Program-made: the position numbers and the translations under genes | In this document: positions 7,211-63,853 of the stretch, one piece after another | How positions within the stretch are numbered: position 1 is the stretch's first letter | Layout of the letters: every line of letters starts with the position of its first letter | DNA from: Haematobia irritans | Taxonomy: Eukaryota > Arthropoda > Insecta > Diptera > Muscidae | Assembly (NCBI RefSeq): GCF_050003625.1 | Contig: NC_134397.1 | Span: forward strand, 96,642,162 to 96,706,161 | Direction: 5' to 3' | DNA: 64,000 nt | The notes under the pieces: model-generated | Database searches by the model: none | Told to the model about the DNA's origin: nothing | The model's input: only the letters and a program-made list of their open reading frames with translations

Positions 7211-9350
7211 ATATGTTAGGTTAGGTTAAATTGGCAGCCCGAGTTATTTTCAGGCTCACTTAGACTATTCAGTCCATTGTGATACCACATTAACTAATAG
7301 TACCTATTACATATGGGCACTTCTAGTTTTAACCGCTGAACCTACTCGATTATTTTTTTCTGCTGAACCAACCATATTGTTCCAAAAACATGAGCAGACT
7401 GCTTCAGTTAACATTTTCCAGGCCCGCCAGTAATCTAAAGCTGTATGCTCCTAAAATTCACTTTCGCCTTACACAAAATGGGACACACTCACACAAGAAG
7501 TGTTTAATTGATTTCTTTTCCTCCGCATCATATCATCTCATACAGTAGTCATTAACAGGTTGGCTGATAAGTCCCCGGTCTAACAAAGAAAAACACATTT
7601 TTTTTGTCAAAATTCGTTTTTATTATTCACCATAGTTCCCTTCAAGAGCGATACAACGATTATAACGACCTTCCAATTTTTTGATACCATTTTGGTAGTA
7701 CTTCTTCGATTTTGCCTCAAAATAGGCTTCAGTTTCATTGCAGCCAAATTTTTTTCCCTGCGAGCATTCTTTTGAGGTCTGAGAACAAGAAAAAGTCGCT
7801 GGGGGCCAGATCTGGAGAATACGGTGGGTGGGGAAGCAATTCGAAGCCCAATTCATGAATTTTGCCATCGTTCTCAATGACTTGTGGCACGGTGCGTTGT
7901 CTTGGTGGAACAACACTTTTTTCTTCTTCATATGGGACCGTTTTGCCGCGATTTCGACCTTCAAACGCTCCAATAACGCCATATAATAGTCACTGTTGAA
8001 GGTTTTTCCCTTCTCAAGATAATCGATAAAAATTATTCCATGCGCATCCCAAAAAACAGAGGCCATTACTTTGCCAGCGGGCTTTTGAGTCTTTCCACGC
8101 TTCGGAGACGGTCCACCGCTGTCCACTCAGCTGTCCTGAGTGGACAGCTGTCCACTCAGCCTACTGTTGATTGGACTCAGGAGTGTAGTGATGGAGCCAT
8201 GCTTCATCCCTTGTCACAAATCGACGGAAAAACTCGGGTGTATTACGAGCTGCAAACACCGCTCAGAATCATCAACACGTTGTTGTTTTTGGTCAAATGT
8301 GAGCTCGCGCGGTACCCATTTTGCACAGAGCTTCCGCATATCCAAATATTGATGAATGATATGACCAACACGTTCCTTTGATATCTTTAAGGCCTCTGCT
8401 ATCTCGATTAACTTCATTTTACGGTCATTCAAAATCATTTTGTGGAATTTTTTCATTAACACGATATGGTCTGTATCAAACATTTTTAGGTTTGCTTCTG
8501 TCCCAAAATTGTAATCGTCGTAAATGTAGAAAAAGTAACAAACGTCGCAAACTCAAAATACTTCAGTCCTCTCAGCCAGTCGAAGAAATTTCAATTCTTA
8601 GGAATATTCATAAAATTGTTTAAATGTTCATAAATTAAAAAAGAAAAACTTGAGTTATTTCAATTGGAGACTCCAAGGCAAAATTGCGATGGTGCAGTAA
8701 ACGTGATGGTCGATACACGCTCTTAATTAACCTTTCACAAATTTCTGCAGAAACTGGAAGAAAGGAGTGAATTTTATAAAATCACTTTATGGCTTATTTG
8801 CGACAATTTCCATACTAATTAAAAAATTTCAAAATTGTAGCTAATCATGCAGATAGCTAGTCATGTCGCAAAAGTCACAGTTTGTGACAGGTCAACCCTG
8901 GTTATAGCGGATATTAGGAGTGATATCTGACGTTTTGAAAACACTAACATATCTAGTGTGCGGTGTAAGTTTGGATGGGGCCATTCTCCCATCGGACATT
9001 CGCCATCATAATGGCCTCGCACAGTATAAGATTGCAGGTAGCCAGAGGTTCAGAGTTCCCCTGGAATATGTAAGGTAGTTCGTTGAGAAACTTGCTGCAG
9101 TTGATTTAAGGAACACAGAGTCCAAGAATTTTATTGCAGGTTGACTCCCTGAGTATATATTAATGCCAACATTTGTTGGAACATTAATTCTCAGCCAATT
9201 GCCACTTATTTTATTGCTAATATTGGAACCTGAAAAACACTACAGCAATTAAGTAATCGTTTCGCTATTCGAAGATCCAAGTCTTTGGAATATACTCCGA
9301 AAACCACTTATCCATTCAATTTGGAGCCATCGGTGTAGAAATGTAGACCA
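7211..9350 (-). mobile_element. LOA/I-like LINE remnant interrupted by a mariner
   Basis: On the minus strand, 8893-9350 is the RNase H region of the LINE seen at 23574-33701, and 7211-7552 is its 3' end with the GGTTAGGTTA (CCTAA) tail. The reading frame is broken many times. The gap holds a mariner (7555 to about 8457) and about 430 bp of unrelated sequence. Confidence 0.8.
7555..8457 (-). pseudogene. Broken irritans-type mariner transposase
   Basis: The right-hand inverted repeat begins ACAGGTTGGCTGATAAG after a target TA (7553-7554), the signature end of the irritans/Himar group. Minus-strand frames give the helix-turn-helix part (IAEALKISKERVGHIIHQYL) and the catalytic part (SDYYMALLERLKVE, FHQDNAPCHKS), but frames are shifted and the third catalytic aspartate region is degraded. 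The transposase 5' end and the far inverted repeat are missing beyond about 8457. A small palindromic rearrangement at 8117-8159 disrupts the middle. It is a dead copy. Confidence 0.85.
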
Positions 9351-14645: not shown

Positions 14646-14867
14646 TAGTAAACCAACTAACGTAACCTAGTAATCAACACAATCTATTCTGGAATCAAAC
14701 TGGTGTGCAGTTTTTTAATAAAATCATCGATATACCTTATATTGTGAATTATAAATGGGGGTTATTCTTTTTGAATGGATTTTGGTGTCGACCAATACAT
14801 GTACATTTGTTTTTTTTTTTACAAAATTATACCAACAGAGACTTTTTTCTCTACTTTACTTTTACAG

Positions 14868-17149
14868 AAGTGGCATTCCTCACGACACAACCGGCGATAT
14901 TTAAATACTGTTTGGCGGCACCAAAATCCAGGACTTATATTACCAGTGTAGAGGGAAGCTCTGCAGCGACTGGAACCAGAACCCAAGATATTCTACAAGA
15001 AATTGCAGTTGATGAATCGGATATAACGACTGAGCAAACACCAGCAAGATATCGAACTTTCAGAGAGGAGGACTTTGAACATTTACCACCATCACAAGAA
15101 CCAACCCTAAAACAACCCCACTCTTGCTTGGATGATTTGGTGTTACACCAGTCGCATATTGAATATCCTGTCAAGTCCCGTTTAAGCACACTAGACCACA
15201 TAGAAAAGGAATTTTCCAAGCCAAAAGGTTTCACTGCACCATCTCGGCTGGAAGGCAATTTGAACAGTTCGTTGAACGATTTGCTGTTGATATCCAGACG
15301 TTCGGAACGTTTGTCAAAGAGTTGTACTGCGATTTCTTCTATCGGTGAAGGCCATTGCAGCATCGTAAAAAGAAACAAAATAGATAAAGCAAGCAACATG
15401 TCGGCTATACCAACAACCAATAGTGCTGGAGCTGCTGCCGCTAGCGATAAGCAACCTTGGCCCAATTCCAAGGATGACTATGAGTTGAGGGATGTTATTG
15501 GTGTTGGTGCCACAGCTGTAGTGCATGCAGCTCTATGTATACCACGCAATGAGAAATGTGCTATAAAGCGTATCAATTTGGAGAAATGGAACACCTCTAT
15601 GGATGAGCTGTTAAAGGAAATCCAAGCAATGTCTTCTTGCAACCACGAGAACGTTGTAACATATCACACATCGTTTGTGGTTAGAGAAGAGTTGTGGTTG
15701 GTATTGCGTCTTTTGGAAGGCGGATCTCTGTTGGACATTATTAAACATAAAATGCGTACGAGCAATTGCAAAAATGGTGTTTTTGACGAGGCTACTATTG
15801 CCACAGTTTTGAAGGAGGTATTGAAAGGTCTCGAATATTTCCATTCGAATGGCCAAATTCATCGCGACATTAAGGCTGGTAATATTTTAATCGGTGATGA
15901 TGGTACGATACAAATTGCAGATTTTGGTGTAAGTGCTTGGTTAGCAACAGGCCGAGATTTATCACGCCAAAAGGTACGTCATACGTTTGTAGGTACACCT
16001 TGCTGGATGGCTCCGGAGGTTATGGAACAAGATCACGGGTATGACTTCAAAGCCGACATATGGTCGTTTGGCATCACCGCTATTGAAATGGCCACCGGCA
16101 CTGCACCATATCATAAATATCCACCTATGAAAGTACTAATGTTGACTCTACAAAACGATCCACCCACCTTGGACACAGGTTCCGAGGAAAAAGATCAGTA
16201 CAAAGCCTATGGCAAAACATTCCGCAAGATGATTGTGGAATGTTTGCAGAAGGAGCCATCGAAACGGCCAACTGCTGCCGAATTGCTTAAGAATGCCTTT
16301 TTCAAGAAGGCTAAAGATCGCAAGTATTTGACACAGACATTGTTGGCATCTGGTCCCTCAATGGAAACGAGAGTACATAAGGCGGCCAAGAGACAGCCTG
16401 GCCAATCGGGACGATTGCATCGAACTGTTACTGGTGAATGGATGTGGTCCGACGAAGAAGATGACAACGGTGGCAAACGACACTCTTCGGATTCGGAATC
16501 GGATGAACGGCCCGTAAACCGTTTAGAACGAGCTGATTCCTCGGATAGTGATCGTGAGGATCTATCGGAACAAACTGAACACACTGCCTTTGCTACTGTT
16601 CAACACCAGCCACAAGCGCAATCACATCAACCTGCACAGACGCAACACGTTCAGCCACAATCTGGAACAAATCCACAACAACAATTCGTTCAGCAACAAG
16701 GACAAGATGTGCAGTTGCAGCAGCAGTCCCAACAGCCCCCTGTACAACAACAGCAACTACCTGCCGTTATGTCGCCCAGTTCTGTGGGTCAAGCAATTGA
16801 TGCAATGGCACAAATGCCACTGCCATCTGCCGATTCCACTGTAATGACAGATGCACCTCCAGTCAACTTGGTCCTGCGCATGCGAAATGTACGCCGAGAA
16901 TTACATGACATTCGATTTGAATTTGCTGTTGGCAAAGACTCTGCACAGGGCATAGCCGCTGAACTAGTTGATGCCGGTCTAGTGGATCCTCTCGACACGC
17001 ACGCCATGGCAGCTAACTTGCACCAATTAATCGAACAACGACATGCAATGAAAACCGTAACGTTCCAATTAAATTCTGGGGTACAACCAGGTGAAGTACC
17101 CGATGATCGCTCGCTGGTCGGGTATGCTCAAATATCTATAACAGATTAG
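14868..17149 (+). CDS. fray: Frayed: Ste20-group kinase of the SPAK/OSR1 family (5' exons not identified)
   Basis: Fly orthologue of SPAK/OSR1, a cytoplasmic kinase activated by WNK that phosphorylates cation-chloride cotransporters. A methionine at 15398 (context AACATG) starts a 583-residue protein. Numbered from it: glycine loop [10 protein letters not shown] (34-43), catalytic Lys57, HRD 155-157, DFG from Asp175, activation loop with Thr196 in HTFVGTPCW (the WNK-site position of OSR1), and S-motif Ser337 in [10 protein letters not shown] Gln-rich linker (about 404-480) follows, then the C-terminal docking domain ending [12 protein letters not shown]. The frame stays open upstream to a good acceptor (tttacag, 14861-14867), so this may be an internal or terminal exon of a longer isoform; the open frame before the acceptor looks intronic. 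No intron interrupts the kinase domain. Possible polyadenylation signals lie at 17396 and 17842. Confidence 0.93.
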
Positions 17150-22101: not shown

Positions 22102-22785
22102 ATTTTATTATACCCTCCACCATAGGATGGGGGTATATTAACTTTGTCAATCCTTTTGTAACACATCGAAATATTGCTCTAAGACCCCATAAAGTATATA
22201 TATTCTGGGTCGTGGTGAAATTCTGAGTCGATCTGAGCATGTCCGTCCGTCTGTTGAAATCACGCTAACTTCCGAACGAAAGAAGCTATCGACTTGAAAC
22301 TTGGCACAAGTAGTTGTTATTGATGTAGGTGGGATTGTATTGCAAATGGACCATATCGGTCCACTTTTACGTATAGCCCCCATATAAACGGACCCCCAGA
22401 TTTGGTTTGCGAATCCTCTAAGAGAAGCTAATTTCATCCGATCCGGTTGAAATTTGATACGTGGTATTAGTATGCGGTCTCTAACAAACATGCAAAAATT
22501 GGTCCATATCCGTCCATAATTATATATTGCCCCCATATGAGGCGATCCCCAGATTTGAACTCCGGAGCCTCGTGGAGGAGCAAAATTCATCCGATGCGGT
22601 TGAAATTTGGTACGTGGTGTAAGTATATGGTATCTAACAACTATGCAAAGATTAGTCCACATCGGTCAATAATTATACAAAGCCCCCATATAAACCGATC
22701 CTCCGATTTGGCTTGCCGATCCTCTAAGAGAAGCAAATTTCATCCGATCCGGCTGAAATTTGGTACATGGTGTTAGTATATGGAT
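22102..22785 (-). repeat. 153 bp period tandem-repeat element (minus copy)
   Basis: It starts with an 'ataccctccaccatagg' terminus at 22109, the reverse complement of the right end at 39773. Units with the 'cccccatata' marker recur at 22381, 22534 and 22687, exactly 153 bp apart. The units stay open in one frame because 153 is divisible by three, so the open frames at 22147-22662 and 22537-22776 are repeat artefacts. Confidence 0.8.
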
Positions 22786-33298: not shown

Positions 33299-33945
33299 TC
33301 CTGATATCTGCCATAACGGGTCGCTGCCTGATAGGCGAATTTGCACAAAATATTGGCGCGAAGTATAATGATTATTGTATGAGCTGTCATGATGCGGAGG
33401 AAAAGGAATCAATTAAACATCTCTTCTGTGAGCGTCCTGCATTTTGTGTAAGGCGTAAGCAAATTTTAGGGGCATATAGCTTTAAATTACTGGTGGACCT
33501 GGAATACGATAACTTAAGCAGTCTGCTAATGTTTCTGGAACAATCTGGTTGGTTCAACAGAACAAAATAATCGAGAAGTTTCAGCGGTTAAAACTGGAAG
33601 TGCCCATATGTAATAGGTACTTTTAGTTAATGTGGTATCACGGTGGACTGAATAGTCTAAGTGAGCCTGAAACTTAATCGGGCTGCTACTTTAGCCTAAC
33701 CTAAGCCCCCTCTCCAGAGGCCTTCCTACGCTTATGTACCGAACCCTCATCTCATGGTCACAGATCTGTACATATTTAAAAACAAACAAGTATATACGGC
33801 CGTAAGTTCGGCCAGGCCGAAGCTTATGTACCCTCCACCATGGATTGCGTAGAAACTTTTACTGAAGACTGTCATCCACAATCGAATTACTTGGGTTGCG
33901 GTATCACTTGCCGATGGCAAGGTATCTTAAAACTTCCTAACACCG

Positions 33946-33984
33946 CACATAGGTAGATATTGAGTAATTAGGCGGCCAAAAGTC
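33946..33984 (+). repeat. Transib left terminal inverted repeat
   Basis: Heptamer-like CACATAG, 23-base spacer, then CCAAAAGTC. It pairs with 36696-36734; the strongest shared block is TTAGGCGGCCAAAA. Confidence 0.85.
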
Positions 33985-34599
33985 AAAATTTGAAATTCGT
34001 AGTAGGCATAAAATTTTGACGTCTACCTGTAGTAAACACTTCCCCGAATTACCCCCATCCTTTTTTTTAACAACCATACGTTACCCCTTCCGTGCAATTA
34101 GACGCAATTTGATCGTTGACGTGATACGTATTTCGATTTGGGTGCCCGGATTATATCAAATTTCGCAATACGCATGTATTCTTATTTTAAGTTGTGTAGT
34201 GAAGTGAAAGTGAAAGTGATTCCAATAGCTCAAGTAAGCTGCTATTAGATAAATAATAGTTTTAACTTTTATTTTTAACTTTCGTTATATTTTTCGGTAG
34301 TTGAACATATCCTCTTTTTCACATAAAAAAAAATAATTTTTTTAATTTCAAAGGCAATTTTGTTATGGATCAGGATTCGTCCGGATCATATTTTTTTGTT
34401 TATTGAATACGTTACACATTTAGCTTTTCTTTAAAAAAAAAACAAGAGCCGCAGAATCCAGCAGACAGCAGTTCAAAGTAGTTTGTTAAAAAAAATTTAA
34501 AAAAAAAAATTTGCTATGGAGATGCCTAGTTCATCGGGGGTGAAAATAGTAACTCGTAAATGTCTGTTTGAGCAAATGTAAATTCAAAATTTACCAAAT

Positions 34600-36504
34600 A
34601 TGGATGAAAAATTGGAATTTTTAGAAAACCACTTGCTATTGTCTTGCGGAGACACTGTGGAAAGAAAAAAGGACCTTAAACATAAATTTTCCTACATCAA
34701 ACACGAGTTTAAACAGAGATGGCTAAAAGCTCATAAAGTTGAAGAAGTTTTTATGAAAAACAACCAGAATTGGCTGGAAGGCACTTTTGAAATACCAGTG
34801 CATTCGCTTAATCAACCAGGTCGTCCGAGCAAATCATTTTCGGAATCGAGTGAACGAAGCAAGAGAAGAAAAACTGAGGAACTTCGATCAAATGTTGATG
34901 ATGAAATGATTATACATGCCGCACAAGTCATATTGCAAACGAAGGGTCAGAGAAATGCCTCAAAAGTGCTCAAAGAAATAGGAAATTCGCCAACAAAGGC
35001 TAGTCAATATAGAAAAGCCTATTCCAAGACCAATGAAACCATTGCTCCTTTGACCCCGTTCCAAGCACTCAAAATGTTCGTAGAAGCTGATCTAACAAGA
35101 CGACAATATGAAATAATAAGGGCAACTAACCCAAAGCATTACCCTTGTTACGACCTTTTGTTGAAAGCAAAACAAGAATGCTACCCACCAAAGACGGCAT
35201 TGAGAGTAACGGCTACCTGCGCAGAAATTAATTTACAATACCTAATGGATCATACTATTCAACGGTTATCAATCTACCTGGAAGAAGTGTTATTAACCCT
35301 TAACGAAATTGAAAGAAAGTCATTAACGATCATTTATAAATGGAGTTGTGACGGGTCACAACAAGCGCGGTACAAACAAAAATTCTCAGAAGACGCCGAA
35401 TCCGATGGTAGTATATTTTTGAGTTCTTTTGTGCCGCTTCAAATTATTTGTGGTAAAGAAAACAATAAAGTGTTATGGCAAAACCCAACACCATCATCAC
35501 CACGATTTTGCCGCCCCATCAGATTTCGGTATGTGAAAGAAACTACAGATGTAACAAAAGAGGAAATATGTTATGTGCAAAATGAAATTAAGAACCTCAC
35601 TCCTACAAAAGTACATATTGATGGAAAAGAATTTGATTATAATCACATTTTGAAAATGACCATGGTTGATGGCAAAGTTTGCAATGCTGTAACCAACACG
35701 ACCTCAACTAGCCGATGCTATATATGTGGCGCCACTTCCAAAGATTTCAATAATTTAAGCAAACAGAACGAAATAAGTCCCGATGCTCTTAAGTTTGGAA
35801 TTTCGGTATTACACGCAAAAATACGTATTTTTGAGAGCATTCTGCATTTGGCATATAAATTGCCCGTGAAGAAATATGGAAAGAAAAGGACCCAGGAAGA
35901 GAAAGCATTAGAAGAAGAAAGGAAAAAAGAAATCCAAGAAAGATTCCGCTTAGAAACTGACCTGTTGGTTGACATGCCTAAACCCAATTTTAGTAATACC
36001 AATGATGGAAATACGAGTAGGAGATTTTTTGAAAACACAGAATTAGCGGCGGACATAACAGGCATTAAACACGAATTAATATATAGATTTAAAATCTTAT
36101 TAGAGGCGATTTCAAGTGGACACAAAATAAATACAACAAAATTCAAAGAATATGCCTTCAACACCGCGCAAATGTATGTGGAATTATACGACTGGCATCC
36201 CATGACTCCAACAATGCATAAATTATTATTACATGGGGCGACCATCATAGATAATGCACTGTTGCCCATCGGCCAATTGTCGGAGGAGGCTGCAGAAGAA
36301 CGAAATAAACATTTTCGGTCATACAGACAGAATTTTTCAAGAAAATTTTCAAGGGAAGAATGCAACCGTGTTATTTATCAAAGATTGCTCCTTACTTCAG
36401 ATCCACTCGTAAGTAGTGAAAGATCGTTAAAGAAAACTTCACACAAGATTTTTTCTAGTGAAGTTATAGAACTATTAGAACCTGCCGAGCCCCACACAAT
36501 ATAG
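34600..36504 (+). CDS. Transib/RAG1-like DDE transposase, intact
   Basis: A 634-residue protein with no internal stop, predicted to cut and paste the surrounding element in the nucleus. A basic patch near 84-92 (SERSKRRK) could be the nuclear signal. Candidate catalytic residues: Asp251 (KWSCDGS), Asp357 (TMVDGKVCN) and Glu562/563 (GQLSEEAAEERNKHFR); the Asp-Asp spacing of 106 is close to RAG1 (108). A CCHH zinc site like that of RAG1 is visible: C373-x2-C376 (CYIC) and H540-x4-H545 (MHKLLLHG). The start at 34600 follows an in-frame stop region; an upstream exon is not needed. A polyadenylation signal AATAAA follows near 36587. The family call rests on these motifs, the element's ends and its target duplication. 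Confidence 0.88.
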   Translation: MDEKLEFLENHLLLSCGDTVERKKDLKHKFSYIKHEFKQRWLKAHKVEEVFMKNNQNWLEGTFEIPVHSLNQPGRPSKSFSESSERSKRRKTEELRSNVDDEMIIHAAQVILQTKGQRNASKVLKEIGNSPTKASQYRKAYSKTNETIAPLTPFQALKMFVEADLTRRQYEIIRATNPKHYPCYDLLLKAKQECYPPKTALRVTATCAEINLQYLMDHTIQRLSIYLEEVLLTLNEIERKSLTIIYKWSCDGSQQARYKQKFSEDAESDGSIFLSSFVPLQIICGKENNKVLWQNPTPSSPRFCRPIRFRYVKETTDVTKEEICYVQNEIKNLTPTKVHIDGKEFDYNHILKMTMVDGKVCNAVTNTTSTSRCYICGATSKDFNNLSKQNEISPDALKFGISVLHAKIRIFESILHLAYKLPVKKYGKKRTQEEKALEEERKKEIQERFRLETDLLVDMPKPNFSNTNDGNTSRRFFENTELAADITGIKHELIYRFKILLEAISSGHKINTTKFKEYAFNTAQMYVELYDWHPMTPTMHKLLLHGATIIDNALLPIGQLSEEAAEERNKHFRSYRQNFSRKFSREECNRVIYQRLLLTSDPLVSSERSLKKTSHKIFSSEVIELLEPAEPHTI

Positions 36505-36695
36505 TATTGAGCACGAAGAAGTCGAGATAGAAACATCTTTCAATAAGAAAATTTAATTCATTTTTATTTATTTATGATTTATGAGAATAAAATGTGTTTT
36601 TTATTATAAAATATATGTTTTTCTTATTTATTTTTTAAAATAAATAGGTAGTTTTTTTTAAAATACAGTCTTTCGAAGCCATTAACGTCCAAAAA

Positions 36696-36734
36696 TATTT
36701 TTGGCCGCCTAAATATTTCAAATCGACCACTGTG
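36696..36734 (-). repeat. Transib right terminal inverted repeat
   Basis: Read on the minus strand: perfect heptamer CACAGTG, a 23-base spacer and CCAAAAATA. It abuts the CACCG target copy at 36735-36739. Confidence 0.88.
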
Positions 36735-36864
36735 CACCGTCTTCAAAATTGCAAGGTAGTCCATATGTGGTATATATTAAACTAAAAAAGATCGATTAAA
36801 TACATATATAATTAAGTTTGACAAAATTTTCTGTAGAAATAAAATTTTGATAAAAGTTTCTATA

Positions 36865-38625: not shown

Positions 38626-38689
38626 TATTTTTGGCTCGAGTGGCAACCATGATTATGAGCCGATACAGACCACTTTTTGGCGTTGCAAA

Positions 38690-39600
38690 TTTCAATTGGA
38701 TCGGATGAATTTTGTTTCTCCAAGAGGCTCCGGAGATCAAATCTGGGGAACGGTTTATATGGGGGCTATATATAATTATGGACCGATATGGACCAATTTT
38801 TGCATGGTTGTTAGAGACCATATAACACCACGTACCAAATTTCAACCGAATCGGATGAATTTTGCTCCTCCAAGAAGTTCCGGGGGTCAAATCTGGGGAT
38901 TGATTTATATGGGGGCTATATATAATTATGGACCGATATGGACCAATTCTTTCGTGTTTGTTAGAGACCACATACTAACATCACGTTCCAAATTTCAACC
39001 GGATCGGATGAATTTTGCTCCTCCTAGAGGCTCCGGAGGACAAATCTGGGGATCGGTTTATATGGGGGCTATATATAATTATGGACCGATATGGACCAAT
39101 TTTTGCATGGTTCTTAGAGACCATATACTAACACCACGTACCAAATTTCAACCGGATCGGATAAATTTTGCTCTTGCAACAGGCTCCGGAGGTCAAATCT
39201 GGGGATCGGTTTATATGGGGGCTATATAACATATAATTATGGACCGATATGGACCAATTTTTGCATGGTTGTTAGAGACCATATACTAACACCACGTACC
39301 AAATTTCAACCGGGTCAGATGAATTTTGCTCCTCTAAGAGGCTCCGGAGGTCAAATCTGGGGATCGGTTTATATGGGGGCTATATATAATTATGGACCGA
39401 TATGGACCAATTCTTGCATGGTTGTTAGAGACTATATACTAATACCATGTACCAAATTTCAGCCCGATCGGATGAAATATGTTAAACTTATAGGCTCCGC
39501 AAGCCAAATCTGGGGGTCCGTTTATATGGGGGCTATACGTAAAAGTGCACCGATATGGCCCATTTGCAATACCATCCGACCTACATCAATAACAAGTACT
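38690..39600 (+). repeat. 153 bp tandem array (plus copy)
   Basis: The marker 'tatatgggggctata' recurs at 38756, 38906, 39059, 39212, 39370 and 39523, giving periods of 150, 153, 153, 158 and 153. The long open frames at 38696-39229 and 39265-39675 come from this periodicity (NYGPIWTNFCMVV repeated), not from a gene. The inverse orientation is at 22102-22785. Confidence 0.88.
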
Positions 39601-47742: not shown

Positions 47743-47968
47743 TTTATTAAGAATCAACAGCATCGAAATATTTGTTTATTATTCCACTGTTTCCAATTTT
47801 CGTGTAATGTTATCAACTGTAAAACGTAATGTTTTCTTCTTCTTGTGCCTTTCACTTTTAATAAGTTGCTGCCTAACGAGTTTGTCCACCTTTTACAATT
47901 TCAATACCTACAAATATAAAAAATCATAAACCAATTTTTTCACAAAAGGTTAGCGTCACTGAATGTTA

Positions 47969-49182
47969 CATAGTTCCCTCCAAGAGCGATACAACGATTA
48001 TAACGACCTTCCAATTTTTTGATACTACTTTGGTAGTACTCCTTCGCTTTTGCCTCAAAATATAACTCAGTTTCGGCGATCACCTCTTCATTGCAGCCAT
48101 ATTTTTTTTCCTGCGAGCATCCTTTTGAGATCTGAGAACAAGAAAAAGTCGCTGGGTCCAGATCTGGAGAATACGGTGGGTGGGGAAGCAATTCGAAGCC
48201 CAATTCATGAATTTTTGCCATCGTTCTCAATGACTTGTGGCACGGTGCGTTGTCTTGGTGGAACAACACTTTTTTCTTCTTCATATGGGGCCGTTTTGCC
48301 GCGATTTCGACCTTCAAACGCTCCAATAACGCCATATAATAGTCACTGTTGATGGTTTTTCCCTTCTCAAGATAATCGATAAAAATTATTCCATGCGCAT
48401 CCCATAAAACAGAGGCCATTACTTTGCCAGCGGACTTTTGAGTCCTTCCACGCTTCGGAGACGGTTCACCGGTCGCTGTTCACTCAGCCAACTGTCGATT
48501 GGACTCAGGAGTGTAGTGATGGAGCCATGTTTCATCCATTGTCACATATCGACGGAAAACCTCGGGTGTATTACGAGTTAACAGCTGCAAACACCGCTCA
48601 GAATCATCAACACGTTGTTGTTTTTGGTCAAATGTGAGCTCGAGCGGCACCCATTTTGCACAGAGCTTCCGCATATCCAAATATTGATGAATGATATGAC
48701 CAACACGTTCCTTTGATATCTTTAAGGCCTCTGCTATCTCGATCAACTTCATTTTACGGTCATTCAAAATCATTTTGTGGATTTTTTTGATATTTTCGTC
48801 GGCAACCACCTCTTTCGGGCGTCCACTGCGTTCACCGTCCTCCGTGCTCATTTCACCACGCTTGAATTTTGCACACCAATCAATTATTGTTGATTTCCCT
48901 GGGACAGAGTCCGGAAACTCATTATCAAGCCAAGTTTTTCCTTCCACCGTATTTTTCCCCTTCAGAAAACAGTATTTTTATCAAAACACGAAATTCCTTT
49001 TTTTCCATTTTATTTTTTTTTTTGACAATAACAAAAGACGCTCTATCTCACAAGCTAATTGACTTACAGACGTCAAATTTTGACACGAATTATTTGAAGG
49101 TTTGTACTATATAAAAATAATATGCATTTAATACTAGCGACGCCATCTATGTGTCAGACCGGGGACTTATCAGCCAACCTGT
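47969..49182 (-). mobile_element. Irritans-type mariner (Himar-like), copy 2
   Basis: The minus-strand 5' end ACAGGTTGGCTGATAAG ends at 49182, next to TA (49183-49184). The 3' inverted repeat is lost: at about 47969 the element joins directly to host-repeat sequence. It encodes the transposase pseudogene 47975-48947. Confidence 0.85.
47975..48947 (-). pseudogene. Mariner (irritans subfamily) transposase
   Basis: Two frames: 48947-48480 (KTWLDNEFPDS, GERSGRPKEVV, IAEALKISKERVGHII, the catalytic MDETWLHHY) and 48419-47975 (SDYYMALLERLKVE, FHQDNAPCHKS, HPPYSPDLDPATF). Two catalytic Asp are present, and the third lies in SPDLDP. The frame breaks around 48425-48480 and again after DLDPA. Strong resemblance to the Himar-type transposases of horn fly is from memory; no alignment was run. 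Confidence 0.88.
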
Positions 49183-50287: not shown

Positions 50288-51076
50288 TTAGACTATTCAG
50301 TCCATTGTGATACCACATTAACTAAAATTACCTATTACATATGGGCACCGCTGAACCTTCTTGATTATTTTTCTTTATTGAACCAACCAGATTGTTCCAA
50401 AAACATTAGCAGACTGCTTAAGCTAACGTTTTCCAGATCCGCCAGTAATCTGAAGCTATATGCTCCTAAAAGTTGCTTGCGCTTTACACAAAATGCAGGA
50501 CACTCACACAAGAGGTGTTTAATTGATTCCTTTTCCTCCGCATCATGACAGCTCATACAATAGTCATTATACTTCGCGCCAATAGTTTTTGCAAAATCGC
50601 CTATCAGGCAGCGACCCGTTATAGCAGATATCAGGAGTGATATCTGACGTCTCGAGAACACTAGCATATCTAGTGTGCGGTTTAAGTTTAAATGGGGCCA
50701 TATTTGCTTGGTGTCGTTACAGCCCTTGCAATCCTCCCATCGAACATTTGCCATCATAACAGCCTTCTCACGCAGCATGAGCTTGCAGGTAGCCAGGGGC
50801 ATACCAACAGATTCTAGTTCCCCTGGAATATGTAAGGGAGTCCCTAGCCTTACCACCTCATCCGCTTCGCAGTTCCCCGGTATGTTCCTATGGCCAGGCA
50901 CCCATATTAGGTGAATATTGTACTGCTCAGCCATCTCATTGAGAGATTTGCGGCAATCGATGGCCGTTTTCGAGTTGAGGAACACAGAGTCCAAGGATTT
51001 TATTGCAGGTTGACTGTCGGAGTATTTTTTGGAACATTACTTCTCAGCCAATTCGCCACCTCTCTTATTGCTAATA

Positions 51077-52008
51077 AAGGGTGATTCTTTTGAGGTTAGG
51101 ATTTTCATGCATTAGTATTTGACAGATCACGTGGGATTTCAGACATGGTGTCAAAGAGAAAGATGCTCAGTATGCTTTGACATTTCATCATGAATAGACT
51201 TACGATCTGCCACAACGTCGAATTTTCAGTGAATGGGCCCTAGAAAAGTTGGCAGAAAATCCGCTTTTTTATCGACAAATTTTATTCAGCGATGAGGCTC
51301 ATTTCTGGTTGAATGGCTACGTAAATAAGCAAAATTGCCGCATTTGGAGTGAAGAGCAACCAGAAGCCGTTCAAGAACTGCCCATGCATCCCGAAAAATG
51401 CACTGTTTGGTGTGGTTTGTACGCTGGTGGAATCATTGGACCGTATTTTTTCAAAGATGCTGTTGGACGCAACGTTACGGTGAATGGCGATCGCTATCGT
51501 TCGATGCTAACAAACTTTTTGTTGCCAAAAATAGAAGAACTGAACTTGGTTGACATGTGGTTTCAACAAGATGGCGCTACATGCCACACAGCTCGCGATT
51601 CTATGGCCATTTTGAGGGAAAACTTCGGAGAACAATTCATCTCAAGAAATGGACCGGTAAGTTGGCCACCAAGATCATGCGATTTGACGCCTTTAGACTA
51701 TTTTTTGTGGGGCTACGTCAAGTCTAAAGTCTACAGAAATAAGCCAGCAACTATTCCAGCTTTGGAAGACAACATTTCCGAAGAAATTCGGGCTATTCCG
51801 GCCGAAATGCTCGAAAAAGTTGCCCAAAATTGGACTTTCCGAATGGACCACCTAAGACGCAGCCGCGGTCAACATTTAAATGAAATTATCTTCAAAAAGT
51901 AAATGTCATGGACCAATCTAACGTTTCAAATAAAGAACCGATGAGATTTTGCAAATTTTATGCGTTTTTTTTTAAAAAAAGTTATCAAGCTCTTAACAAA
52001 TCACCCTT
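51077..52008 (+). mobile_element. Tc1/mariner-type element, 932 bp
   Basis: Ends AAGGGTGATT and its inverse, with TA at 51075-51076 and 52009-52010; the flanking LINE reads through at 'ttgctaatatttcagcctg'. It encodes only the catalytic part of a transposase. Nearly identical to 62418-63350 and, as far as it goes, to 1-527. Confidence 0.9.
51249..51902 (+). CDS. Transposase catalytic domain lacking the DNA-binding end, 217 residues
   Basis: Catalytic motifs: FSDEAHFWLNG (first Asp), WFQQDGATCHTARD (second Asp) and PPRSCDLTPLDYFLWG (third Asp), with 36 residues between the last two. The frame upstream of Met1 reads on to a stop (HHE, stop, TYDLPQRRIFSEWALEK), and the helix-turn-helix region is missing between 51150 and 51190. 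This is the same in every copy here, so the element was probably spread by an enzyme supplied from elsewhere. The protein may be made but should not bind its ends. Confidence 0.75.
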   Translation: MAENPLFYRQILFSDEAHFWLNGYVNKQNCRIWSEEQPEAVQELPMHPEKCTVWCGLYAGGIIGPYFFKDAVGRNVTVNGDRYRSMLTNFLLPKIEELNLVDMWFQQDGATCHTARDSMAILRENFGEQFISRNGPVSWPPRSCDLTPLDYFLWGYVKSKVYRNKPATIPALEDNISEEIRAIPAEMLEKVAQNWTFRMDHLRRSRGQHLNEIIFKK

Positions 52009-53289
52009 TATATCAGCCTGAAAAACACTACAGTGATTAGGTAATCTTTTCGCTATTCGAAGTTCCAGATCATTAGAATATACTCCTAAACCCAATTGTC
52101 CATCCAATTTGGAGCCATCAGTGTAGAAATCTATATATTCTTTATTCCCCGGGGTCTTTGTGCACCACGCCTCACTGTTGGGGATTAGAGTCTCAAACTT
52201 TTTGTCGAAAAGTGGACTCGCCAAAGTGTAATCCACTACGTTAGGCACATCTGGCGTTATTTTGAGGACCGAACTGTGACCGTAACTTTTTTCCGACCAC
52301 AGCGATAGCTCGCGCAACCGCACAGCCGTTGTTGCAGCTGATTGTTTGGCCAAAATGTCTAAAGGCAATAGATGCAGCATGACATTAAGGGAATTTGTTC
52401 CTGTCTTGCTGAATGCGTCTGAGATACACAAACACGCCATACGCTGAACTTTGTCTAAACTTGTTGGTTGGTGAAGTGCCGGCCACCAGACTACAACACC
52501 ATATAGCATTGTAGGTCTAACCACTGCCGTATATAGCCAATGCACAAATTTTGGTTTTAGTCCCCACTTTTTTCCTATTGCCTTTTTGCACGAGTACAAA
52601 GCTACCTTTGCTTTTCTCGCCCTTTCTTCAATATTAAGCTTAAAGTTCAGCTTCCTGTCCAAAATAACGCCAAGGTATTTTGCACACTCACCAAAGGGAT
52701 TTTCAATACCCCCTAAGGAAATTACCCCAAGACCATTGTCTTTTGGCCCATTTCTCTGTCATCCGGAGGGCCCTCTGAATAATATCTCTGATTGTGGATG
52801 GGAATTTTCCCCTGACTGCTAGAGCCACATCATCTGCGTATGCCACCACTTTCATCCTTTATTTTTCTAGGGTAACCAGAAGGTTATTTATAGCAACATT
52901 CCAAAGAAGAGGTGATAGAACTCCTCCTTGAGGAGTGCCTCTGTTCACATACCTTTGTATGTTTGCTTGTCCTAGTGTGGCTGAAATACGTCTCTTCATT
53001 AGAAGTTCGTCTAATAGCCTAAGTATACCTGGATCAACATTCAGGGTTGCCAGTCCATTTAATATCGAGCTCGGATGGACATTATTGAACGCCCCTTCGA
53101 TGTCTAGAAACGCCACGATTGTGTATTCTTTGACAGATAGTGAGCTTTCAATAAAGCTGACTAGTTCATGTAATGCGGTCTCAGTAGACCTGCCCTTCGA
53201 GTATGCATGCTAACGTGAACTCTCTTGGTTTTAATTAGTTCGCGTTACCACGAGTGCACTGTATTCGATTTTATAAATTTTTTACATTT

Positions 53290-56948: not shown

Positions 56949-58080
56949 ATACATTCCTTTTTTGTCCGTTAACATATAAATATGTCCAAGGGTTAAATAA
57001 AATAATTTTTGGTGATTGGAGTGTTGGCGTTTGCTTTATTTCGTTTTATTTTATCAGCTAAGTAATATTCGTGTGAACATAAGACTAGGAAGGCCTCTGG
57101 GTGGGGGCTTAGACCCCCCCCCCCCCAGAAGAATTTTAGCTCCCCCAGAATTTGAAAACCTATTTTTTCCATTGTTTTTATATAAATAAAAAATAAAAAT
57201 AAATAAATAAAATTAAACAAGTAAATACACAAAGTTGCGCTAAAGACTTTCATGCACAATCGAATTACTTGGGTTGTGGTAGCAGTTGCCGATGGCAATA
57301 TAGTTTTATTTCTTAACGTTGTCTTCTAAATTGTAAGTTAGTTTCTTTATTATAAGTGAATGCTTGACGTCTGATATTTATGAAATAAAGCTGTGGTTGA
57401 ACTTATGATTTGAGTTTTTATATTTATGTTTAGTTTAATATCTAAAGCCCATTTACTATTTAATTAAATAAATAGTAATTGATATTAAAACTATTCTTCC
57501 ATAAATGCACATATTAATAATGCTGCAACAAAGTGTCGCCAAAAAACTAGTGAAAAATTTCTTTTTGTGTATCGGAGTGGTGCAAAATTGGCGGAGAAGT
57601 GATGACTGTAATATGAACTGTCATAGGAAGGATGTCCACAATTTCAGCAGCCGTTGCACTAAATTTACATCACTTTTTAAGGTGTGATCCGAATTTAGTG
57701 TTTTGAATGTGAATTAAAAAATTTTGTGATATTTTCCCGTATAAATTATTTTAAATGCATTCCAATGGAATATTTTCAAAAATTATCGATTTTTTAGCAT
57801 TCTTTCGGCAATATAGCATTCTTCGCCATTTGAATAATTTGTACCATTTTATTAATTCTTTTTAACCTATTTGAAAAAAATATTAATGGGTATTTTGACA
57901 AAACGAGCTATAAAAAAATTTAATTAGTTAAATTTCCTGTGTAGTTAAAATAATTAACTTTGAACAATTCCTTTAGAACAATTTCCAATTTTTTGCTGGG
58001 AAAAAGTGTGGAACTACTTGTTATAAACACAAAGAGTTCTATTTTACAACTGAAGTTTTATTTCAATGTCTATATACTTA

Positions 58081-62231: not shown

Positions 62232-62417
62232 TTAGTTCTTTTTTTCTTTAAATTTTAGGTATGTCGATTATTTTTCCAAGTACACACCTGACACCATGTT
62301 ATAAACACAAAGAGTTATATTTTACAACTGAAGTTTTATTTCAATGTCTATATACAGTTTGTCAAGAAAGTGTTTTGACAATGGGATAAAAATTATGTTT
62401 TGTTCCAAAATTAAATA

Positions 62418-63350
62418 AAGGGTGATTCTTTTGAGGCTAGGATTTTCATGCATTAGTATTTGACAGATCACGTGGGATTTCAGACATGGTGTCAAAGAGA
62501 AAGATGCTCAGTATGCTTTGACATTTCATCATGAATAGACTTACGATCTGCCACAACGTCGAATTTTCAGTGAATGGGCCCTAGAAAAGTTGGCAGAAAA
62601 TCCGCTTTTTTATCGACAAATTTTGTTCAGCGATGAGGCTCATTTCTGGTTGAATGGCTACGTAAATAAGCAAAATTGCCGCATTTGGAGTGAAGAGCAA
62701 CCAGAAGCCGTTCAAGAACTGCCCATGCATCCCGAAAAATGCACTGTTTGGTGTGGTTTGTACGCTGGTGGAATCATTGGACCGTATTTTTTCAAAGATG
62801 CTGTTGGACGCAACGTTACGGTGAATGGCGATCGCTATCGTTCGATGCTAACAAACTTTTTGTTGCCAAAAATGGAAGAACTGAACTTGGTTGACATGTG
62901 GTTTCAACAAGATGGCGCTACATGCCACATAGCTCGCGATTCTATGGCCATTTTGAGGGAAAACTTCGGAGAACAATTCATCTCAAGAAATGGACCGGTA
63001 AGTTGGCCACCAAGATCATGCGATTTGACGCCTTTAGACTATTTTTTGTGGGGCTACGTCAAGTCTAAAGTCTACAGAAATAAGCCAGCAACTATTCCAG
63101 CTTTGGAAGACAACATTTCCGAAGAAATTCGGGCTATTCCGGCCGAAATGCTCGAAAAAGTTGCCCAAAATTGGACTTTCCGAATGGACCACCTAAGACG
63201 CAGCCGCGGTCAACATTTAAATGAAATTATCTTCAAAACGTAAATGTCATGGACCAATCTAACGTTTCAAATAAAGAACCGATGAGATTTTGCAAATTTT
63301 ATGCGTTTTTTTTAAAAAAAAAGTTATCAAGCTCTTAACAAATCACCCTT
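62418..63350 (+). mobile_element. Tc1/mariner-type element, 933 bp
   Basis: Third copy of the AAGGGTGATT-ended element, with TA at 62416-62417 and 63351-63352. It is the innermost level of the nest and differs from 51077-52008 by only a handful of bases, so both are recent. Confidence 0.9.
62590..63243 (+). CDS. Transposase catalytic domain lacking the DNA-binding end, 217 residues
   Basis: Differs from the protein at 51249-51902 at only three residues (Met for Ile in KMEELN, Ile for Thr in CHIARD, last residue Thr). The catalytic motifs FSDEAHF, QQDGATCH and CDLTPLDYF are kept. The same N-terminal loss and in-frame stop are seen upstream. Confidence 0.75.
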   Translation: MAENPLFYRQILFSDEAHFWLNGYVNKQNCRIWSEEQPEAVQELPMHPEKCTVWCGLYAGGIIGPYFFKDAVGRNVTVNGDRYRSMLTNFLLPKMEELNLVDMWFQQDGATCHIARDSMAILRENFGEQFISRNGPVSWPPRSCDLTPLDYFLWGYVKSKVYRNKPATIPALEDNISEEIRAIPAEMLEKVAQNWTFRMDHLRRSRGQHLNEIIFKT

Positions 63351-63853
63351 TATAATGAAATTTAAAAAAAAAATTTTATTATGTATTTTGCAAAGTATAC
63401 ATACGTACACAGAATTAAAAATTTAATAAAATATTTAATATTTCAATTATTTCTAGAAGTTGAAATAGTTGGCAATGTCAAAAGACTTTCTTGACATACT
63501 GTACTTAAAATATAAAATTATAAATGTAATTTGCATAGTCTACCTAGTTATAAATATAAGTTGATAAAGAAGTATAATATTAACAAGTATTATCACAACA
63601 CTACTATTAGTTGCTTTATTAAAAATTAATTGTCTAGTTATGTTGAAGTATGATTCTTTATTCATTTTTATAAAATAAAACATTAATTGAACCTATAAGT
63701 GTATTCGTTTTTAGCTAGGGGGGATATAGCCCCCACCCTCCTCTCGCCCTATGAAAATTGTCTAGCTACGCTAATGCGTGAGAAAGGTGAGTACTAGACC
63801 TCAAAAACACGTTTCTGTAGCATATTTTCCCAAGCATCAGCCAAATGTAGCAG

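Follow-up and report, generated by a model that had tools for sequence, protein, structure and literature searches.

Known Transib elements and the horn fly locus

The transposases of the Transib superfamily are related to RAG1 of the immune system. The described element with which we compare most closely is HzTransib of Helicoverpa zea, for which several structures are available (PDB 6pqn, 6pqx and others). HzTransib is 3518 bp long, has inverted ends and a 5-bp target duplication (GCTCG), and its transposase has a deduced length of 489 residues (PMC1852546); the purified protein cuts the element's own ends and leaves hairpins on the flanks (PMC6941560). The present locus lies in a 64,000-nucleotide stretch of the genome of the horn fly, Haematobia irritans (contig NC_134397.1, positions 96,642,162 to 96,706,161), which we call the window and in whose coordinates all positions are given. 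It holds a genuine Transib element, a DNA transposon of the cut-and-paste type, with both of its ends preserved; its family, its ends, the duplication, one related site that is empty and a broken frame are all directly observed. It very probably represents a Transib insertion in an older dispersed repeat, flanked by a 5-bp duplication, whose own transposase gene has since been broken. As such it is an ordinary representative of a known superfamily, and the break is probably recent.

The ends and the insertion site

The boundaries of the element and the associated features are as follows.

33946-36734: Transib element, 2789 bp, flanked by two CACCG copies
33941-33945, no strand: left target site duplication, CACCG, identical to 36735-36739
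36735-36739, no strand: right target site duplication, CACCG, identical to the left copy
33946-33981, plus strand: left terminal inverted repeat, made up of CACATAG, a 23-base spacer and CCAAAA, 28/36 positions equal to the right end
36699-36734, minus strand: right terminal inverted repeat, starting CACAGTG, pairs with the left end
33976-33984, plus strand: left nonamer-like block CCAAAAGTC, spacer 23, 6/9 to ACAAAAACC, top of spacers 5-31
36696-36704, minus strand: right nonamer-like block CCAAAAATA, spacer 23, 6/9 to ACAAAAACC, top of spacers 5-31
57240-57342, plus strand: paralogous empty site (a related copy of the repeat that lacks the insertion), 105 columns aligned to the joined flanks at 80% identity, junction ungapped

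As in other members of the superfamily, both inverted ends start with CAC and an RSS-like (recombination signal sequence-like) heptamer, CACAGTG on the right and CACATAG on the left. The agreement at 28 of the first 36 positions stands out against shuffled sequence: when both 701-base end regions were shuffled 100 times and the best 36-base match anywhere was taken, none of the 100 shuffles gave one as good. Over arms of 37 nt the ends are 78% complementary. On both sides CCAAAA follows a spacer of 23 bases, and in a scan of spacers from 5 to 31 against ACAAAAACC, which we take to be the RSS nonamer consensus, the score peaks there, at a level (at least 6) reached by 2.06% of the plus-strand 9-mers of the window. 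Because the two ends are homologous, these two matches count as about one observation rather than two; moreover, the start of the nonamer depends on the RSS register, since the inner block common to both ends, TTAGGCGGCCAAAA, takes in the final spacer bases. The inverted ends and the 23-base spacers proposed in a preliminary description of this DNA are thus confirmed, and its proposal of 23-type signals at both ends is supported in the sense that the ends are signal-like, with a peak at spacer 23. Such a pair of 23-type ends differs from the arrangement in V(D)J recombination, where a 12 is paired with a 23 (PMC8355894).

The 5-bp duplication characteristic of the superfamily had also been described correctly, with CACCG on each side, and it can be set against a site without the element. 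The final portion of the left flank has related copies at three places in the window (57240, 26052 and 23457); the latter two end before the insertion point, and only the copy at 57240 crosses it, holding the target site once in a diverged form. Both the duplication and the boundaries are supported by this single empty paralogous site (n = 1), which spans the junction without a gap. With blastn, no second copy of the element was found within the 64-kb window; when 50 relatives of the transposase were compared with the window by tblastn, there were 24 matches outside the element, the best 20 of which all had E values of at least 0.087.

The transposase and its catalytic core

Among 5.8 billion proteins searched, 477 proved related to the encoded protein, and the best 120 of these were listed; 50 of them, together with the window protein, form the family alignment of 51 rows used below. 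The protein is homologous to known Transib transposases and nearer to HzTransib than to RAG1 or RAG1L, and the profile check called for in the preliminary description places it within the Transib/RAG1 group and supports the Transib assignment. The Pfam RAG1 profile (PF12940) gives it 23.9 bits, below the cut-off of 25, and matches 31 of the 51 family members at E ≤ 0.01. The NCBIfam search of the protein found no family. PF26100, annotated on many of the relatives in the protein search, was absent from the Pfam scans and was not used.

The residues and regions to which the comparison refers are these.

35350-35352, plus strand: codon of catalytic D251, aligned to HzTransib D126 and RAG1 D600, 51/51 rows
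35668-35670, plus strand: codon of catalytic D357, aligned to HzTransib D225 and RAG1 D708, 50/51 rows, one gap
36295-36297, plus strand: codon of catalytic E566, aligned to HzTransib E436 and RAG1 E962, 50/51 rows, one Asp
34819-35031, plus strand: residues 74-144, region in place of the RAG1 nonamer-binding domain (NBD), a GRP motif and then helices

The fold, the DDE core and the zinc-type Cys/His pattern are shared with HzTransib, although protein identity is only 39-42%; with the vertebrate RAG1 core it is 13-18%. The triad D251/D357/E566 occupies the positions of its HzTransib counterpart. Both aspartates had been named correctly at the outset, but E562/E563, then put forward as the catalytic glutamate, are rejected in favor of the residue aligned to the glutamates of both known proteins; they are its conserved neighbors (51/51 rows). 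The four residues of the zinc-type site, C373, C376, H540 and H545, are invariant in all 51 rows. H540 and H545 are aligned to two histidines of RAG1, which presumably bind zinc, and the Cys-x2-Cys pair aligns with that of HzTransib. In the pairwise alignment with RAG1, however, only C376 stands opposite a cysteine, so the suggestion that the site sits where it does in RAG1 is right for the histidines and just loosely so for the cysteines.

HzTransib aligns only from residue 148-152 of the window protein, whose N-terminal part is longer, and the solved HzTransib chain starts after the region that corresponds to the GRP-bearing part. This region resembles the RAG1 NBD only weakly; such likeness in Transib N-terminal regions has already been published (PMC9435367). 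Unlike the vertebrate RAG1 system, the element has no RAG2-like frame: apart from the 634-residue frame discussed below, the list of frames holds one of at least 80 residues, antisense inside the transposase gene. The RAG2-like gene that accompanies RAG1L in RAGL/ProtoRAG elements is likewise missing by this frame list, a RAG2 profile not having been run. Within Transib, Subgroup II lacks the RAG2-binding alpha11-alpha12 region and carries a type II C-terminal tail (PMC9435367); closeness to HzTransib alone makes it likely that the horn fly element belongs there.

A broken transposase gene

Four features define the present state of the gene.

34600-36504, plus strand: residual open frame of 634 residues, Transib transposase minus the start region and the original tail
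34516-34578, plus strand: upstream part of the transposase frame, MEMPSSSGVKIVTRKCLFEQM, severed by a stop; the P0001 start is nearly identical
34579-34581, plus strand: premature stop codon TAA; P0001 aligns over it ungapped
36497-36556, plus strand: C-terminal tail in another frame, 89% match to P0001 residues 662-680, stop at 36554-36556

P0001, a protein from public read assemblies, is the closest relative among the matches listed. It is 94-95% identical to the window protein over the 634 residues, but has 680 residues and is continuous at both of the points where the window is broken. It exceeds the window frame by 46 residues, 28 N-terminal and 18 C-terminal, and begins with MEIPSSSGVKIVTRKCMFEQMQLQNLPSIDEK. 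Read in one frame from 34516, the window gives MEMPSSSGVKIVTRKCLFEQM, the TAA and then IQNLPNMDEK. Residues 1-660 of P0001 match 34516-36495 and residues 662-680 match 36497-36553 in a shifted frame, which puts a frame shift near 36496 and leaves the final HTI of the window frame out of frame. This stop and this shift, set against a close relative that has neither, mark the 634-residue frame as what is left of a broken gene. The frame had initially been called intact and the element complete and possibly active: a frame of this length is indeed present, and completeness holds for the ends and the target duplication, but not for the gene, and the suggested activity is not borne out. The uninterrupted transposase gene of an autonomous Transib is lacking here, a matter of activity and not of family membership. 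Since the C-terminal tails differ among the 24 relatives with tails shown, the early stop is the more serious of the two faults.

An intron that would remove the stop is rejected, as P0001 aligns across it without a gap. By eye, a possible first exon with a short intron (34365-34529) can be discerned: an ATG at 34365 opens MDQDS, which a candidate acceptor AG before TTCATCG, near 34530, would join in phase to SSGVKIVTRK, though the donor is poor. The relative P0007 starts MDCDNTG...TTSG, and several other predicted starts resemble the read-in of an intron end.

Could this copy nevertheless be autonomous, with translation from the Met at 34600 yielding a shortened but functional protein? The catalytic core is open and retains the triad and zinc-type residues, the shorter HzTransib has its counterpart only well inside the window protein and yet cleaves its ends when purified (PMC1852546, PMC6941560), and the predicted start is at the same Met in 2 of the 50 relatives (P0009, P0027) and later in P0023 and P0093. 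Nevertheless, in 46 of the 50 the start is predicted no further downstream than the position of the stop; at least 15 residues precede the window's first Met in 28 relatives, 7-12 in 18 and none in four, all these start sites being predictions. A VTR-like motif found upstream in 22 of the 50 is still encoded in frame by the window, the tail is missing too and five residues conserved in the family have changed, all of which makes autonomy improbable.

These five (G249, G454, G465, A567 and D591) are altered in the window and kept both in P0001 and in 47-49 of the 49 other relatives. By fraction of changed conserved columns the window ranks fourth of 51 (8/191, against 4/160 in P0001 and a median of 0.6% in the relatives), the window being scored on 191 columns against 50 rows and the relatives against 49 (156-167 columns, rows shown). 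Three of its eight changed columns (364, 407, 500) are common to P0001; at 496 the departure is in P0001. Several points weigh against a broken Transib copy as we describe it. At the 35 differences between window and P0001, the commonest family residue is in P0001 at 17, in the window at 10 and in neither at 8, a modest signal of decay in the remaining frame; because the relatives are predicted proteins, the comparison is tilted toward making the window look decayed; and the catalytic residues are kept, so that the remaining frame may, to judge by these residues, have some activity. In addition, the ends and breaks are known from one copy plus the proteins of relatives, and the left heptamer departs from the right one at two positions.

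Mechanism and timing

By homology to HzTransib and RAG1, the DDE transposase of a working copy would bind and pair the two 23-type ends. It would nick the DNA at the outer border of CAC, complete the cut by forming hairpins on the flanks, and insert the ends elsewhere through a 5-bp stagger. On this reading the element inserted into an older dispersed horn fly repeat, duplicating 5 bp of target, and the window copy has since lost its own gene through the early stop and the C-terminal frame shift. Any further movement would most likely depend on transposase supplied by another copy. That the break is recent is suggested by the exact target duplication and by how closely the protein matches P0001. 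Recent movement had first been argued from an intact frame together with the target copies; the former argument fails, but such movement is plausible given the exact duplication and the P0001 identity.

Genomic context

The surroundings bear on whether Transib might here have given rise to a domesticated host gene, the origin proposed for RAG1. The long open core frame would fit such a gene; the transposon ends and target duplication that still flank it, its interruption by stop and frame shift, the many repeats in the window and the matches of several of the 10 neighboring frames scanned to transposase or reverse-transcriptase families make domestication extremely improbable.

Elsewhere in the window, a frayed kinase exon (14666-17149) is 100% identical to Haematobia irritans frayed over 583 residues (15398-17146), whereas the closest other named species (Stomoxys calcitrans, Musca) reach 88% and other full-coverage sequences at best 89%; by this match, too, the window is most likely horn fly DNA. 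Two segments, 51073-52012 and 62414-63354, align over 941 columns at 99.3% identity, and part of the sequence recurs in inverted orientation at 1-570; each carries a 234-aa frame resembling, on inspection by eye, a Tc1/mariner-type transposase, and a Pfam scan of one of these (51198-51899) found no family. Degraded mariner-type transposase lies on the minus strand at 7626-8126, with a Transposase_1 match, and at 47940-48977; 47969-48791 is 90% identical to 7631-8456. Mariner is reported to be abundant in the horn fly, and the genome paper names mariner and Tc1-type elements (PMC5940159). Arrays of a 153-bp tandem unit, at 38686-39562 and 22375-22783 on opposite strands, are open in frame over several units. 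A literature search for Haematobia irritans and Transib returned, as far as the available text goes, a general review only (PMC2874221); it missed the genome paper just cited.

Significance

With this locus, the well-described Transib superfamily gains a copy from the horn fly. The element is of modest use for its 23/23 pair of RSS-like ends, from a source family that keeps a GRP-bearing N-terminal region preceding the part covered by the HzTransib structures. It is possible, though we regard it as rather doubtful, that a lineage with symmetric 23-type ends and this NBD-like region moved recently and that uninterrupted copies persist in the horn fly; if so, the lineage could provide an active Transib in addition to HzTransib.
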